This document shows positions 10,728-45,286 of a stretch of DNA of 59,112 nt, in pieces. The stretch lies in the IMG/VR virus record IMGVR_UViG_3300043256_000282, positions 1 to 59,112 of that record. The stretch is one strand, 5' to 3'. This stretch comes from a virus. Each line of letters opens with the position of its first letter. The first letter of the stretch is position 1. The position numbers were made by a program, and so were the translations under genes. The notes below the pieces were generated by a model. It did not search any database. It was not told where the DNA came from and was given only the letters and a program-made list of their open reading frames with translations.

Positions 10728-10850
10728 ATGAGTGAATTCTGGACCGCAGCCGCCATTACCGCAGGACTGGTATTTTTCGCGAGAATAGTGGTGATCCTGA
10801 TTCGAAGGCCGCGGACTTGGAAGAGGGGCGTACGATCACCGCCACCGTAG
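10728..10850 (+). CDS. Small single-pass membrane protein
   Basis: 40 aa from ATG 10728 with AAAGGAA upstream. One hydrophobic segment (about residues 5-26: WTAAAITAGLVFFARIVVILI) and a strongly basic C-terminus (RRPRTWKRGVR). The stop codon TAG lies inside the first bases of the tRNA gene, so gene end and tRNA overlap by 10 bases. Confidence 0.5.
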   Translation: MSEFWTAAAITAGLVFFARIVVILIRRPRTWKRGVRSPPP

Positions 10851-10913
10851 CTCAGTCGGACAGAGCGCGGTCCCCTAAACCGTAGGTCGCAGGTTCGAAT
10901 CCTGCCGGTGGCG
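10841..10913 (+). tRNA. tRNA-Arg (anticodon CCT)
   Basis: Full cloverleaf: acceptor GCCACCG / CGGTGGC (7 bp), D-stem GCTC / GAGC, anticodon stem GCGGT / ACCGT (one G-T pair), T-arm GCAGG-TTCGAAT-CCTGC, discriminator G. No encoded CCA. The anticodon loop is CCCCTAA, giving anticodon CCT (reads AGG). Two oddities: position 33 is C instead of the near-universal U, and there is no free base between D-stem and anticodon stem. It may still function, or be slightly decayed. Confidence 0.88.
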
Positions 10914-10962
10914 TTTCTGTTTTTTTCTAATTCATGCTCGGGGACGTTACAGAGGGCTGACC

Positions 10963-38438: not shown

Positions 38439-39068
38439 ATGACGACGTGGCTCGTATTAGGTTCGTCTGTTTCCGCACCCGCAGAGTATGAACGCGCTAA
38501 GCCGTTCGCCGATGTTATCATCACGTCGAACCGAGGCTTGAAGATCGAACCGAACCCCGATTGGTATTGGGTCAGTGACCACGTGGCCGTTGATCGTTAT
38601 TTGCCTTTGATCGAACCATCGCTCGGTAACAAGACGAAGCTCGTGACAAATGACTTCGCAGTCCGAACGAGGCCACAACTCAAGCCGCTAGCGGACGTGA
38701 TTCTCAATTATGACTACAAATACAACTGCAACTGGCATCCCGGTCGCTACGTGAATGCACGCGCTTCGGGGGGCATGATTTTACAATTTGCTGCAAACCA
38801 CGATGCCGATCGTATCTTGATGGTTGGGATGAGCGGATATAGATCGAGACCAGGCCACATCGAAGTCGAATACTTTGATGGGGAGTTAGGAGTGATCAAA
38901 TGTCAAGGGCTGATGAAAACCTATGGTCCGTTGGTCCAGAACGTCATTGACCGATCGTCCGGAATCACGTTCTTCTTCTTTGGGAAACCCAGTTATCCGT
39001 GGCGTGGAATGTCTATAATTGAAACGCAATCAACCGACACCTTGAAATCACCCAATGTCGCAGTTTAG
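38439..39068 (+). CDS. MptE/DUF115-like protein (sugar operon gene 1)
   Basis: 209 aa. The opening WLVLGSSVSAPAEYERAKPFADVIITSNRGL, then PDWYWVSDHVAVDRY and later DRILMVGMSGY are typical of the MptE/DUF115 fold (Rossmann-like, seen in sialyltransferase-like and pterin-kinase-like proteins), in which a VLG-S-P loop binds a nucleotide. A nucleotide-sugar transferase or related binding role fits the operon. The second copy lies at 41874. Confidence 0.6.
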   Translation: MTTWLVLGSSVSAPAEYERAKPFADVIITSNRGLKIEPNPDWYWVSDHVAVDRYLPLIEPSLGNKTKLVTNDFAVRTRPQLKPLADVILNYDYKYNCNWHPGRYVNARASGGMILQFAANHDADRILMVGMSGYRSRPGHIEVEYFDGELGVIKCQGLMKTYGPLVQNVIDRSSGITFFFFGKPSYPWRGMSIIETQSTDTLKSPNVAV

Positions 39069-40134
39069 AGAAGCGCGAATTCGTGTCAAAGACTTCCAGG
39101 CTCGGCAAGAGGTATCTAGCCGTCCATTGAGTTTGCTCATTGAGATTTCGGCTCGCTGCCCCCAGCGTTGCCCCATGTGTCCGTTGCAAGGTTCCGACAT
39201 GAGACTCGCGCGAACCGAAGGACTCATGGACGTGCTCTTATTCGAGCGGATTATCGATGAACTGGCCGCAAATCCTCCCGAAGTAGTATGCCTGCATTCG
39301 AGCGGCGAAAGCACCGTCCATCCACAGTTTACGGAAATGGGTTCTTACGCTCGGCGCAAGTTACCTAAGACCTGGCTTCGAATGAACAGTGGTGGAATCA
39401 CCTGGAACACTGACGAGAAGCGAACGAAGTGGCTCAAGATCGGCCTGGATCGACTGATATTTTCGATCGAGGCATGCCGCTGGTTGCAAGATGGTCTTGA
39501 TCGTGATGGCAAGCCGTACGATGTAAAGACCCATCGCGCGGATGTCAAGGACGACTATCAGCGGTACACGATTCACCCGTACCGCGCCGGGGCGCCATGG
39601 AAGATCGTTGTCCCCAACATCATCGCGACAGCAAGGATACTCCGACGACTGAAAAAAGACTCCCCAAAGGGCGACCCGGTACATCGGGTCAATCTAGGAA
39701 TTCAGCACATGGTCACGGTCGAGCAAGCGCTGATCCCAATCAGGGCGGCCCGTGCCAACACGTCGGCCATCTCAACGTGGGAGATCGAATTCTCGCGAGC
39801 CTTCTGGAAGCAGCATGGCGTTGAAGTTGGTCAGGTGGCTGTCGCATCGGTTGGCGGTCAAGTTGACAACAGCCCAATGATGAACCTGGAATTCAAGCGC
39901 AAGCCGATGGGCATATGCCGCGAGGTCTACACCAACTTGATGATCGCTTACGATGGGTGCGTAGCGCCGTGCTGCGTCGATGCCCATGAATTGGAATTGC
40001 TGCCCGAGATCAATCTAAAAAAGATGACGATCAAAGAGGCGTGGACGCATCCAAGCGTGGTGAAACTGCGGGCGCAACATCGATCTGGCCGAGGCTATCC
40101 CGAGAAGTGCAAACGCTGCCTGGCCTCAATATGA
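39055..40134 (+). CDS. Radical SAM/SPASM enzyme (sugar operon gene 2)
   Basis: 359 aa. The 4Fe-4S/SAM motif is C35-x3-C39-x2-C42 (CPQRCPMC) followed by a short glycine-poor 'HSSGEST' segment (the GGE-type motif, here SGES at about 83-86). A second cysteine set (C288, C302, C306, C307 with C352 and C355) matches a SPASM/twitch domain for auxiliary Fe-S clusters. Such enzymes do radical chemistry on sugars, peptides or nucleotides. Here, with a NeuA/NeuD pair, a sugar substrate is most likely. It overlaps its neighbours by 14 and 4 bases. Confidence 0.88.
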   Translation: MSQFREARIRVKDFQARQEVSSRPLSLLIEISARCPQRCPMCPLQGSDMRLARTEGLMDVLLFERIIDELAANPPEVVCLHSSGESTVHPQFTEMGSYARRKLPKTWLRMNSGGITWNTDEKRTKWLKIGLDRLIFSIEACRWLQDGLDRDGKPYDVKTHRADVKDDYQRYTIHPYRAGAPWKIVVPNIIATARILRRLKKDSPKGDPVHRVNLGIQHMVTVEQALIPIRAARANTSAISTWEIEFSRAFWKQHGVEVGQVAVASVGGQVDNSPMMNLEFKRKPMGICREVYTNLMIAYDGCVAPCCVDAHELELLPEINLKKMTIKEAWTHPSVVKLRAQHRSGRGYPEKCKRCLASI

Positions 40135-40853
40135 TGCTACCGATGCAAGACACTCTTGAAAAACAGCGCCAAGCGATAGCAGGTCTTGGACCGCCCGTCA
40201 GCAAATCAATCTTCATTTACGGTGCGGGGGGGTTTGCGCGTGAGCTTCGATGGTTGTTGGAGAATTCAGCGCAGCCAGGCTGCATCCATGAGTTCGCTGG
40301 ATTCATTGACGACCGTATGACCGCTGAGCGGGCGAACAAGCGGCAGATTGGCGCTGCATCTTGCACCCTGGCTTCTGCTTATTCCCATCAATCAGCGAAG
40401 GATTACTTTTGCGTATGCGGTATCGGCGATCCCGAGAATCGCCAACGCGCGATGTGGCGCGCCATGGATGCTGGATTTCGTTCGTTGTGTGTGATCCACA
40501 ACCGCGCGGAAATCGGGCCGGGCGTGATGTTCGGCGATGGCGCGATCGTCTGTGCCGGAAATATCATCACGGTCGATGTGAAAATCGGCAAGCACGTCTT
40601 ATTGAACCTCGATTGCACGGTCGGGCATGATGTGCGGATCGGAGACTACTCGGTTATTTGCCCTGGCGTCCATATCTCCGGTTGCGTCGAGATCGGCCAG
40701 AAGGTATTCATTGGGACTGGAGCGAACATCATCCACGGAACTGCCAAAGAACCGCTGACCATCGGCGATGGCGCGGTGATTGGTGCCGGCGCATGCGTTA
40801 CAAAGAGCGTGCCCGCACACACAAGAGCGCTGGGAGTGCCCGCACGATGGTAA
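40131..40853 (+). CDS. NeuD/PglD-like sugar acyltransferase (sugar operon gene 3)
   Basis: 240 aa from ATG 40131 (ATGATG overlap). An N-terminal Rossmann-like domain (IFIYGAGGFARELRWLL, then FAGFIDD) and a C-terminal left-handed beta-helix of hexapeptide repeats (about 125-240: IGPGVMFGDGAIVCAGNIITVD, VKIGKHVLLNLDCTVGHDVRIGDYSVICPGV). This is the two-domain plan of NeuD/PglD acetyltransferases, which acylate sialic acid or UDP-4-amino-sugars. The conserved His of the LDCTVGHD region is present. Confidence 0.85.
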   Translation: MMLPMQDTLEKQRQAIAGLGPPVSKSIFIYGAGGFARELRWLLENSAQPGCIHEFAGFIDDRMTAERANKRQIGAASCTLASAYSHQSAKDYFCVCGIGDPENRQRAMWRAMDAGFRSLCVIHNRAEIGPGVMFGDGAIVCAGNIITVDVKIGKHVLLNLDCTVGHDVRIGDYSVICPGVHISGCVEIGQKVFIGTGANIIHGTAKEPLTIGDGAVIGAGACVTKSVPAHTRALGVPARW

Positions 40854-41890
40854 TGATCGAGGCTCTTGCCGTGATCATCGGCCGTGCCGGAAGTAAGGGA
40901 TTGCCCGGCAAGAACACGGCGCTTGTCGCAGGTGAGCAGATGATCTGCCACACGATTAGGCACGCGAAGGCGGCTCAGGCTGTTACGCGCATCATCGTCT
41001 CGACCGATGACGAGGGTATCGCGTTCGCCGCGCGGGCAATGGACATCAAGGTGATCGAGCGACCGGCCGAGTTGGCAACCGATACCGCCTCAGTCGGTGC
41101 TGCCGTTCATCATGCGGTGCAGACTATCAAGGCCACAGAGTCGATTGTTGTGATTCTGTACGCGAACGTGCCGGTACGACCGCCGGACCTGATAGATAGT
41201 GCCGTTCGGATGCTTCGGCAGACCGGCGCGGACAGTGTGCAGTCATACGTCGAGGTTGGGAAACAGCACCCGGATTGGGCGTGTCGTCTCGACCACGAGC
41301 AGCGCGTCGAGGCGTACACCACGAGCACACCCGACCGTCGCCAGGACCTTGAGCCGTTGTTCATCCCCGATGGCGGCGTGCTCGCGGTCACGGCTGAGAG
41401 TCTACGCAAGGCAAGCGATGACGCCCCGCACACTTTCCTCGGCACTGACCGGCGGGGCATCAAGACAGAGGCGGGCCAGGTCGTTGACGTTGACAGCGCG
41501 GCCGATCTCGCTGTCGCTGAGGCACACCTGATCGCACAAGGCGATCATTCCGGCGAGCGGCGCACGATCGCAGTAGTGACGGGCGATCGCGCAGAGTTCG
41601 GTGTACTGCGGAGCGTGATGCGAGCGATCCACCAGCACCCTCAGCTTGATCTTGTGATCCACGCCACGGGTCGTATGCTTGACGATCAGCACATGGACGA
41701 ACTGATGGAGTTCGTGTTCGACTTGACCGACAAATATGGGGGTACGATTCCCGTTGAGTTTGTTCCAATGTGGAATGAGCATGAAGCCAAAGCTGGCACG
41801 GTTTATGTGACCGCAGAGGAGACCGCCGATGGCAAGGCGGCGTCTCGCGGCGTTATGATTGCTTCAACGCGATATGTCAAGCAGCAATGA
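40853..41890 (+). CDS. NeuA-type cytidylyltransferase fused to a truncated NeuC-like segment (sugar operon gene 4)
   Basis: 345 aa from the ATG at 40853 (TAATG overlap); an ATG at 40847 is in frame. Residues about 1-230 are a CMP-acylneuraminate/Kdo cytidylyltransferase: VIIGRAGSKGLPGKN (the nucleotide loop), RIIVSTDDEGIA, and later GGVLAVT and GQVVDVDSAADLAVAEAHL. Residues about 237-265, RRTIAVVTGDRAEFGVLRSVMRAI, are the start of a UDP-GlcNAc 2-epimerase (NeuC). The epimerase is then cut short: the final ~80 residues do not follow that family. The NeuC part therefore cannot be active, but may serve for binding. Confidence 0.85.
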   Translation: MIEALAVIIGRAGSKGLPGKNTALVAGEQMICHTIRHAKAAQAVTRIIVSTDDEGIAFAARAMDIKVIERPAELATDTASVGAAVHHAVQTIKATESIVVILYANVPVRPPDLIDSAVRMLRQTGADSVQSYVEVGKQHPDWACRLDHEQRVEAYTTSTPDRRQDLEPLFIPDGGVLAVTAESLRKASDDAPHTFLGTDRRGIKTEAGQVVDVDSAADLAVAEAHLIAQGDHSGERRTIAVVTGDRAEFGVLRSVMRAIHQHPQLDLVIHATGRMLDDQHMDELMEFVFDLTDKYGGTIPVEFVPMWNEHEAKAGTVYVTAEETADGKAASRGVMIASTRYVKQQ

Positions 41891-42677
41891 ACAAGGTACA
41901 AAGGCGCCGGAAAAGGAACAAATAGATGGCACTTCACCACGGGAAAAAAATCAAACGTGGCCACAAGAAGGTCAAAGCGAAGGGTGCGGCCGGTCCCAAG
42001 AAAGCCAAATCGAGGCGACGCCCCCGGCGCTGACCACAATCGTCCTCGCCTGTGGTGGCCCGTCGTTGTGCAACGTCGATTGGTCTGCGCTCCCATTCCA
42101 GGTTGCCGCCATCAACAAGGCCATTTGGGTAGCGCCGCGATTCGACTATTGGTTTATCGCCGACGGATACCCTGAGAAGGTCTACAAGGATCGCTGGCGT
42201 CCGATCGCGGTGAACCCCAGGATCGCCAAGTGTGTCCCGCATCATCGGCTTGCCACGGGCTATGTGAAGCTCAAACGGGTCGCACGTAATCTTCACGCCG
42301 CCCCAATGTCTCAAGGTCGGACGCAAGACAAGACGATGGCCAGTCGTGGCCGGCAGCTTTTGGACGGGCGCACGCCGTTTTTCTATGTCGAGAACAAGAC
42401 AACGCTCTTCGCGACCCAATGGCTGTCCGTCGGATACGAACGACTGATCTATGTCGGATGCGAACTGACCTTCAAAGGCAATTTGGGCAGTTGTGTGGGA
42501 AGCGGGATGGGCGGCGGCGAGGTCAATCAGATGCGCAAAAACCTCGAACTGGTGAAACGTGGTCTACAAGCCCTGCACGTTGCCGCTGTGAAGCGCGGAA
42601 TCCAAATGCTCTCATTCAGCCCTGGCCCGATCAACGACATCATGCCGAGGTATGAACCATGCCCGCCCTGCACGTGA
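41874..42677 (+). CDS. MptE/DUF115-like protein (sugar operon gene 5)
   Basis: 267 aa from ATG 41874, which has no ribosome site; a CTG at 42030 is a possible later start. From about residue 55 the sequence follows the MptE/DUF115 fold: TTIVLACGGPSLCNVDW, VAAINKAIWVAPRFDYWFIADG, YERLIYVGCELTF. It is longer than the first copy and ends in a Cys-containing tail. The first ~50 residues overlap another frame that encodes a basic 35-aa peptide, and may be non-functional. Confidence 0.65.
   Translation: MSSSNEQGTKAPEKEQIDGTSPREKNQTWPQEGQSEGCGRSQESQIEATPPALTTIVLACGGPSLCNVDWSALPFQVAAINKAIWVAPRFDYWFIADGYPEKVYKDRWRPIAVNPRIAKCVPHHRLATGYVKLKRVARNLHAAPMSQGRTQDKTMASRGRQLLDGRTPFFYVENKTTLFATQWLSVGYERLIYVGCELTFKGNLGSCVGSGMGGGEVNQMRKNLELVKRGLQALHVAAVKRGIQMLSFSPGPINDIMPRYEPCPPCT
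41926..42033 (+). CDS. Overlapping 35-aa Lys/Arg-rich peptide
   Basis: MALHHGKKIKRGHKKVKAK..., 35 codons with AAAGGAAC eight bases upstream, ending in CGC-TGA where the CTG overlaps a possible start for the MptE-like gene. Nearly half the residues are Lys or Arg. Either a true small nucleic-acid-binding peptide that couples translation of the next gene, or a chance frame. Confidence 0.4.
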   Translation: MALHHGKKIKRGHKKVKAKGAAGPKKAKSRRRPRR

Positions 42678-43484: not shown

Positions 43485-43676
43485 ATGGGCATCTTTCAAA
43501 CGCCTACATTCCAACGTGCGGTAGAGATCAGCAAGAAAGAGGGACGCCTTACCGGCAGTGCGCTGGGACAAGCATTCCGGGAACGCAAGGAATTCCAAGA
43601 GCAGCGGTCGTTCCGCGCGTTCACAAGGCGGATTGATCGGCGCGCGACACAGCGCACTTCGGCTTTGCGAAGCTAA
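43485..43676 (+). CDS. Small basic virion-type protein
   Basis: 63 aa, SD GGAGG. Basic and helical (KKEGRLTGSALGQAFRERKEFQEQRSFRAF). Same MGIF opening as the preceding gene, so the two may be related. Its stop overlaps the portal start (TAATG). Confidence 0.65.
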   Translation: MGIFQTPTFQRAVEISKKEGRLTGSALGQAFRERKEFQEQRSFRAFTRRIDRRATQRTSALRS

Positions 43677-45286
43677 TGAAACTCCAAGACCTATACCAAC
43701 GTCTGACGAACGAGACCGGCATCACCGAGGGCGCCGATGGCAGCGACGAACCCCGTGCAAGCCAGGGTCGCAAGAAGTTCCTCGACCGCGCCGAGGAAAT
43801 CGCCAAGCTCACGATCCCGTCGATCGAGCCTCGCGGACTTCCGTTGACCGATGTTGCCTACAGCCATGACGGCGCCCAGGCGATTCGGGGGTTGTCATCG
43901 TCGATCCGCAGAGTCTTGATGCCGCCCAATCGCACGTGGTTCAAGCGCCAACTCACGACAAAGGTGCAACAGGAGGTAGAGAGGGCCGTGGCCGGCGCCA
44001 GGGGCGACGTTGAGGCTCAGCTTGCGCAGATCAACTTGCTAATTCGTAACGAGATGGTTCAAGGCGAAAAACAGATCAATGCCTATCTGCATCGTCGCAA
44101 GGTCAAGGCGCGGATCGCCCGAGCAATCACGCGGAATCTGATCGAAGGCTTCAATGTGATCCGTGTCTTGACGGATCAGATCAACGTCTTCCCGCTTCGA
44201 CTCATCACTGCTTACCGACAGCACGGGGAATTGAAGTTCTATATATTGAAGGAAGAAAAGCCGATCGACGTCAGATCGTTTGGCGACGACAGCAAAGTCG
44301 TTCCAGGCTCAATCTATACGCTGATCGACGTCGTGAACAAGGAAGTGTGGCAATCTCAAAACGATGGCCAGGCCGAAAAAGTCGATCCCATGGTTGATGG
44401 TGGAGACTGGCGCCAGTACGTCGCTTTCAACTCTGAAATGCCGGACACCGAGCATTATCCGGATTCGTTCGGCTACACCTTCCTCACATTGTTCAATGAG
44501 ATCGACGCGCTGGTGATGGACCTTGGGGAAGCGGCGGCCAATGCGGCGTGGGCCGTGTTGGGCATCAGTCCGGAATCTTCACTAACGACTACCGAGGTGA
44601 CCAAGTGGAGGTCGGGTCAGGTATACAAATTCTCGCCGGAGCAACTTGCCTGGCTCAGTTCCGCGACCAAACTTACCGACTTTGGGATCGTCAACAAGAG
44701 ACTCGAAACTCTACAAGCGGAACGGCGCAAAGTGTTCGGTGCCGGCGTTCGTGAGCGCTCGCCGGGGGACGTGACGGCGACGCAAATCCTCCAGGAAGTC
44801 GAAGAACTCGACGAGCAAACGGCCGATCTGCTGGTCAACTACGACGAGACCTTGCTTGTGCCGCTGGCTACCGCCGTGGGTGTTGTGGAAAGGATCGACA
44901 CGATCGAGATTCCAGGCATCGGCTCGCCGATCGAAACGATCGTCACCACTGGCAATTCCGCACTCCAGCGACAGATATCGATCATGCGTATGTTGCAGGC
45001 GATGAACATCATTCAGGGGCTTGCCCCGGACCTGTTCAACCGAAGAGCAACCTTCAAATTGACCGCTGAGATCGAGGGATTCGACGAATACGTAGACGAT
45101 GTTCTTCAAGCGGAAGTCCCCCCCGAGCCGATTGAACCTACCGACGAGACGAGCCGAGCCGAGCAGCCTGCCCCCGAAGTCGCCGGATCGATCAAACAGA
45201 CCGCCGGCGGCCCGCAACCGCAAGTGCAAGGCGAAATCCAGCGGCAACAAAATACCGGCCGTCTCGTCTCAACATCGGTGGCTTGA
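43676..45286 (+). CDS. Portal (head-tail connector), T7 gp8-like
   Basis: 536 aa. The dodecameric ring at one head vertex, through which DNA passes. Matches the T7-type connector family (Head-tail connector): the opening 'LYQRLTNE...KFLDRAEEIAKLTIPS', RGLSSSIRRVLMPPNRTWFK, ARAITRNLIEGFNVIR, and the region with VFGAGVRERSPGDVTATQILQEVEELDE. The C-terminal ~60 residues are Pro/Glu-rich and disordered. Length is typical (T7: 536 aa). Confidence 0.93.
   Translation: MKLQDLYQRLTNETGITEGADGSDEPRASQGRKKFLDRAEEIAKLTIPSIEPRGLPLTDVAYSHDGAQAIRGLSSSIRRVLMPPNRTWFKRQLTTKVQQEVERAVAGARGDVEAQLAQINLLIRNEMVQGEKQINAYLHRRKVKARIARAITRNLIEGFNVIRVLTDQINVFPLRLITAYRQHGELKFYILKEEKPIDVRSFGDDSKVVPGSIYTLIDVVNKEVWQSQNDGQAEKVDPMVDGGDWRQYVAFNSEMPDTEHYPDSFGYTFLTLFNEIDALVMDLGEAAANAAWAVLGISPESSLTTTEVTKWRSGQVYKFSPEQLAWLSSATKLTDFGIVNKRLETLQAERRKVFGAGVRERSPGDVTATQILQEVEELDEQTADLLVNYDETLLVPLATAVGVVERIDTIEIPGIGSPIETIVTTGNSALQRQISIMRMLQAMNIIQGLAPDLFNRRATFKLTAEIEGFDEYVDDVLQAEVPPEPIEPTDETSRAEQPAPEVAGSIKQTAGGPQPQVQGEIQRQQNTGRLVSTSVA

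Follow-up and report, generated by a model that had tools for sequence, protein, structure and literature searches.

What is a phage doing with a gene that joins a complete NeuA-type cytidylyltransferase to the beginning of a NeuC epimerase? The gene lies in a virus record of 59,112 nucleotides (IMG/VR IMGVR_UViG_3300043256_000282), which was analysed over its full length and is called the window below. The window carries T7-like structural genes for a head-tail adaptor, a major head protein and a tail protein. We found a single open frame of 347 amino acids (40847-41890, plus strand), in which a NeuA/PseF-type domain (residues 5-230) is followed in frame by the start of NeuC (residues 239-281) and then by a tail of 66 residues. 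The preliminary description had noticed this chimera, and matches to PF02348 and TIGR03568 within one frame confirm it. The start that it used, 40853, is the second in-frame ATG; the first is at 40847. The features are listed in Table 1.

Table 1. Features of the chimeric gene and of the neighbouring cassette (window coordinates)
Feature	Positions	Strand	Basis
GT42/Maf-like putative CMP-sugar transferase, 209 aa	38439..39068	+	structure matches, related loci
Radical SAM/SPASM protein of the cassette	39055..40134	+	profile matches
NeuD-family acetyltransferase (exact start unsure)	40131..40853	+	TIGR03570 above cut-off
Whole domain of a NeuA/PseF-type CMP-nonulosonate synthetase (residues 1-232)	40847..41542	+	profiles, alignment, model
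Linker DHSGER, site of the expected NeuA stop and NeuC start	41543..41560	+	sequence, host loci
N-terminal stub of NeuC (hydrolysing UDP-GlcNAc 2-epimerase), residues 239-281, profile positions about 1-44	41561..41689	+	profiles
Tail of 66 residues (orphan) with the stop codon; codons used as in the phage, GC lower	41690..41890	+	codon use, searches
Second putative transferase, GT42-like by eye only	42032..42677	+	eye

The NeuA domain appears to be a complete CMP-nonulosonate synthetase, which would activate a nonulosonic acid in a CTP-dependent reaction. In the profile search, TIGR03584 (PseF) matched residues 7-226 over positions 1-218 of 222 (E 1.9e-25), with a score of 89.9 bits, below the curated equivalog cut-off of 205.7 bits. 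The match to PF02348 (residues 8-136) was above its cut-off. R..GSKG.P.KN (residues 13-23) and a late D.D (residues 214-216), which we take to be motifs of NeuA/PseF enzymes, are both present, and the invariant residues of NeuA were retained in an alignment of 40 sequences (the ORF and 39 relatives). Residues 1-230 were modelled with block means of pLDDT of 76-98, and the model of residues 4-229 superposed on the Vibrio cholerae CMP-Neu5Ac synthetase 6ifd_A with Z 25.8 and an rmsd of 2.1 (202 aligned). Profiles, alignment and fold match thus bear out the view that the cytidylyltransferase is whole. The ORF shares the entire domain, the fold and the conserved residues with the NeuA/PseF family (PF02348, TIGR03584; planctomycete subfamily) but differs from it in being encoded by a phage and in its chimeric C-terminal extension of 115 residues.

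The stretch after the linker is related to NeuC. Positions 2-43 of TIGR03568 (NeuC, 365 positions) matched residues 240-281 with E 1.6e-7 for the whole protein and E 3.6e-8 with the excised tail as query. The NeuC stretch also matched a profile of the NeuCs of five Phycisphaerae loci (E 3.1e-13), a profile of 57 NeuCs (E 4.5e-15, in a database of 2 sequences) and PDB 5xvs (residues 239-281, E 5e-5). The profile E-values place this similarity far beyond chance. The NeuC start proposed earlier is therefore real by profile comparison, although it spans 40-45 residues rather than 30.

NeuC enzymes have a two-domain fold. The likeness of the phage protein to this family covers the first 43 residues or so, and the remaining residues, about 320, are missing, so the gene does not encode the full-length two-domain enzyme. 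As most of the N-terminal domain and all of the C-terminal domain are absent, the stub is presumably vestigial as an enzyme and should be unable to act as an epimerase. It amounts to about one beta-alpha-beta unit and does not include the epimerase active site, which gives no support to the earlier suggestion that the added part was kept for sugar binding. Three residues read by eye set it apart from all 30 host loci: D247 in place of T/S/C, V253 in place of L and M277 in place of H. We then compared, across these 30 loci (two genomes are counted twice, as L041/L176 and L185/L191), how similar the NeuA was and how similar the first 43 NeuC residues were, both as percent identity. Against the resulting regression, the stub had a mean residual of -2.6 points (range for single loci, -13.0 to +6.6). 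The stub is therefore as host-like as an intact NeuC is expected to be at such a divergence of NeuA; it has not decayed and is either young or constrained.

NeuC similarity stops at residue 282 (base 41690), in agreement with the abrupt departure described before. With the NeuC profile, the 66-residue tail scored -2.7 bits, a score equalled or exceeded by 1283 of its 2000 shuffles, and a diverged NeuC was rejected on this basis; the true NeuC stretches at the corresponding place scored 39.8-79.6 in 57 of 57 cases, these being the sequences that built the profile. Using the NeuCs of the five Phycisphaerae loci and two NeuBs as queries, we searched all six frames of the window. For NeuC (tblastn, hmmsearch --max), the stub alone gave a match below E 0.1, and a frameshift of an intact NeuC was rejected on this result. 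Since no second NeuC piece occurs in any frame of the window, the gene represents a truncation and not a simple frameshift, as expected of the deletion product suggested by the preliminary description. NeuB gave no match in the six frames (tblastn, two query proteins). No full-length NeuA-NeuC fusion was present in the genomes and loci searched, which also answers the earlier concern that intact homologues might reveal a frameshift or an assembly error. A native NeuA-NeuC bifunctional enzyme was considered and dropped: the long "fused" ORFs (L020, L068) have no second recognised domain.

The tail has the character of phage coding sequence. The coding signal, calculated from the codon use of the phage itself, continues in frame through the junction to about 41840, and none of 3000 stop-free null sequences of the same composition reached the coding score of the tail. 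The GC content was 62.2% in NeuA, 60.6% in the stub, 52.3% in the tail and 57.7% in the window. The tail matched nothing in Pfam (E<=1); its hits among 50,697 phage records were at E 0.5 or above, and exact 8-residue patterns gave none in IMG/VR contigs. PHROG returned a single 11-residue match (E 0.15). In NCBIfam, a weak match to an acyl carrier protein (E 0.013) was obtained with the longer piece only and involved residues that straddle stub and tail. Identification as a SLOG protein was discarded, the Vibrio phage matches being weak (E 0.5-0.8) and not accompanied by a profile match. The tail may have been kept as an appendage or may have a role in oligomerisation.

We next consider the source of the gene. 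Planctomycete loci were the top NeuA matches among the best 80 of 580 confirmed loci, and the best of these (L014) was 66% identical. In the class of L014, the protein was matched at E<=1e-6, by either domain, in 204 of 298 genomes. The apparent donor of NeuA is a member of the Phycisphaerae (Planctomycetota). From the donor of this single gene, a planctomycete host might be assumed for the phage. The usual host gene order is neuA-neuB-neuC, and in L014 neuB comes next after neuA. We examined 28 loci in which neuA and neuC share a strand, leaving out NeuA loci whose available stretch contained no NeuC and dropping L176 (= L041), L186 (= L184), L188 (= L036) and L191 (= L185) as the same genomes, though the 28 may still include duplicates. 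The gap between the two domains was 1.06-1.32 kb, with room for neuB, in 24 of them and 3.8 kb in one. In the other three (L182, L184 and L187) the neuC domain begins 45-70 bp after the neuA domain, and in L184 and L187 both genes are in the same frame. L184 shows NeuA, a single TAA and a full-length NeuC. The fusion probably started from such an arrangement, with neuA directly before neuC. The searches made brought up no relative that has the same fusion.

The genes upstream of the chimera form a cassette. NeuD scored 177.4 bits against TIGR03570 (curated cut-off, 160.8), and its stop overlaps the start of NeuA, as in an operon. The NeuD and radical SAM proteins of the phage did not match the planctomycete loci. 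In both planctomycete loci tested, the gene upstream of neuA encodes a Maf-like domain (PF01973) together with a radical SAM domain. The planctomycete proteins at L014:2339-5977 and L015:2135-5977, directly 5' of neuA, have about 1200-1280 amino acids and contain Maf/MptE-like transferase and radical SAM domains. The phage resembles the Phycisphaerae loci that look like flagellin-glycosylation loci (Maf-radical SAM protein, neuA, neuB, neuC) in keeping a transferase, a radical SAM protein and NeuA together, but it has separate short genes, a NeuD and a broken neuC, and it lacks neuB. Downstream, the GT42-like look of the protein at 42032-42677 comes from CGGPSL... and SVGYERLIYVGCEL; searches for relatives of this protein in the 50,697 phage records (E<=1), in PDB and in viral contigs gave none. 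The conserved-looking part of the 41859-42677 ORF begins without an ATG, and a very basic ORF of 35 residues at 41927-42034 (MALHHGKKIKRGHKK...) overlaps the start of the ORF.

The 209-residue protein at the head of the cassette recurs beside NeuA in other phages. Four loci in IMG/VR (L276-L279) encode members of its family, all on siphovirus-like contigs. A NeuA-like gene lies directly upstream of the transferase in L277 and L279, and the two are fused in one frame in L276 (4176-5501) and L278 (5293-6615), within clusters of phage head and tail genes. In L276 the fusion comes after genes for a portal, a head protease and a major head protein, and in L278 portal and head closure genes surround it. 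The gene pair of L277 is surrounded by genes for a major head protein, a head-tail adaptor and a tape measure, and that of L279 follows a head-tail adaptor and precedes neck and tape measure genes. L277 and L278 are L125 and L145, already found through NeuA; therefore, only L276 and L279, which were found by the transferase search alone, are independent. These loci suggest a recurrent phage module, which would attach nonulosonates. It counts against such a module that the family was present at E<=1e-3 in only two of the 80 viral NeuA loci kept (L125 and L145).

As to the nature of the transferase, its model was of low confidence (pLDDT 54.6). The best structural matches of this model were Maf 5mu5 (Z 8.1, rmsd 5.0 over 169) and CstII (Z 6.4-7.3), with unrelated folds below them at about 5-6. 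PHROG 4603, "alpha-2,3-sialyltransferase", matched four of five family members weakly (best E 0.017). By eye, the protein carries what we take to be sequence motifs resembling GT42/Maf enzymes. Compared with CstII (GT42) and the central domain of Maf, it is short at about 200 residues, its model is of low confidence, and it has no credible Pfam match; PDB likewise gave no sequence match and the 50,697 phage records none at E<=1. The search of 298 Phycisphaerae-class genomes with this family returned no match, although an empty answer of such a search proves nothing.

Taken as a whole, these observations are probably best explained by a captured neuA-neuC pair that was trimmed to an active NeuA, an inert stub and a phage-style tail, and that feeds a transferase. 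A T7-like phage would have acquired the pair from a Phycisphaerae-type planctomycete. The intergenic stop would then have been lost and neuC cut after about 43 codons, so that the resulting frame would encode an active NeuA, an inert NeuC stub and 66 further residues in the coding style of the phage. Alternatively, neuB may have been deleted from the more usual neuA-neuB-neuC order. NeuA may couple a host-made nonulosonic acid to CTP and yield CMP-nonulosonate, the GT42/Maf-like transferase may attach the sugar to a target on the virion or the cell surface, and NeuD could add acetyl groups to the sugar or to a precursor of it. That the cassette lies among virion genes points to late expression and to a target on the virion or the surface. 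The stub and tail would be a by-product of gene capture, perhaps dispensable and at most a structural appendage. Points against this explanation are the undecayed stub, the coding character of the tail, the failure of NeuD and the radical SAM protein to match the planctomycete loci and the poor model of the transferase.

The stub and tail could, with a smaller but real chance, have been retained as an accessory domain with a function of its own, such as oligomerisation or docking to the transferase. Such a role would fit the undecayed stub, the phage-like codons of the tail, the functional-looking transferase fusions at the C-terminus of NeuA in two phage contigs and the model of residues 231-300, a beta-alpha-beta-alpha-beta arrangement with block means of 61-76 pLDDT. 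However, residues 301-347 were modelled at block means of 35-56, and the same fusion is known to us from this single sequence and from no relative. The coding character of the tail and its composition, unlike that of the stub, would also be seen if the tail were a present or former separate small phage gene that starts inside the frame, with the chimera arising from upstream read-through. ATG and GTG codons are found in frame near 41693-41717, the GTG after GGAG (a ribosome site by eye); however, no stop separates the tail from NeuA and no free-standing protein homologous to the tail was found, and we consider this reading unlikely.

It is very improbable that the junction is an assembly artefact that joined the end of a bacterial neuA-neuC' to phage DNA. 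The GC step at the junction, the single metagenomic record and the failure to find close relatives of the phage would be compatible with an artefact, but both frame and coding signal cross the junction, and the NeuD stop overlaps the NeuA start in an operon-like manner. In addition, the donor-like DNA is flanked by cassette genes upstream and phage structural genes downstream, and the stub has substitutions that are absent from the 30 host loci.

If the trimming of a captured neuA-neuC pair is accepted, the chimera would be a record of a bacterial gene pair that entered a phage and of which just the activating enzyme was kept, implying that the sugar used by the phage is one made by its host. 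The gene neighbourhood matters more than the chimera itself. The preliminary interpretation is supported in part, but the phage identity, the planctomycetal donor and the glycosylation cassette had escaped it. A wider proposal, which we offer tentatively, is that unrelated phages carry a late module of CMP-nonulosonate synthetase and compact GT42/Maf-like transferase that transfers a sialic-acid-like sugar of the host directly to virion proteins, much as Maf glycosylates flagellin; here, NeuA would have been re-acquired from a planctomycete together with a piece of neuC. If such a module does decorate virions, sialic-acid-like coats would be a means by which phages bind to hosts, evade them or compete for them.

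The Maf central domain and Cst-II are described as resembling each other in the part of PMC11339370 available to us. Mycobacteriophages encode glycosyltransferases that act on their capsid and tail proteins (PMC12363180, citing Freeman 2023); the portion of that account consulted includes no CMP-nonulosonate synthetase, unlike the phage described here. A table on viral metagenomes lists both neuA and neuB (PMC3877843, consulted in part). As far as their accessible text goes, the cytidylyltransferases of two virome papers are of the glycerol-3-phosphate type and were set aside as parallels, as was an irrelevant Listeria phage paper. Our literature search found no paper on a NeuA-stub fusion or a NeuA-transferase module, and a phrase search found none on phages of planctomycetes.

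The portal search revealed no close relatives of the phage in which the empty site might be seen. The terminase is about 22% identical to those of T7-like phages. The portal (head-tail adaptor, 43676-45286) was absent from the 298 Phycisphaerae-class genomes and had best identities of 23-26% in the viral contigs returned by single-sequence and alignment searches, a divergence that indicates a deeply branching T7-like lineage. A tRNA-Arg (CCT) gene is located at 10840-10914 of the window.
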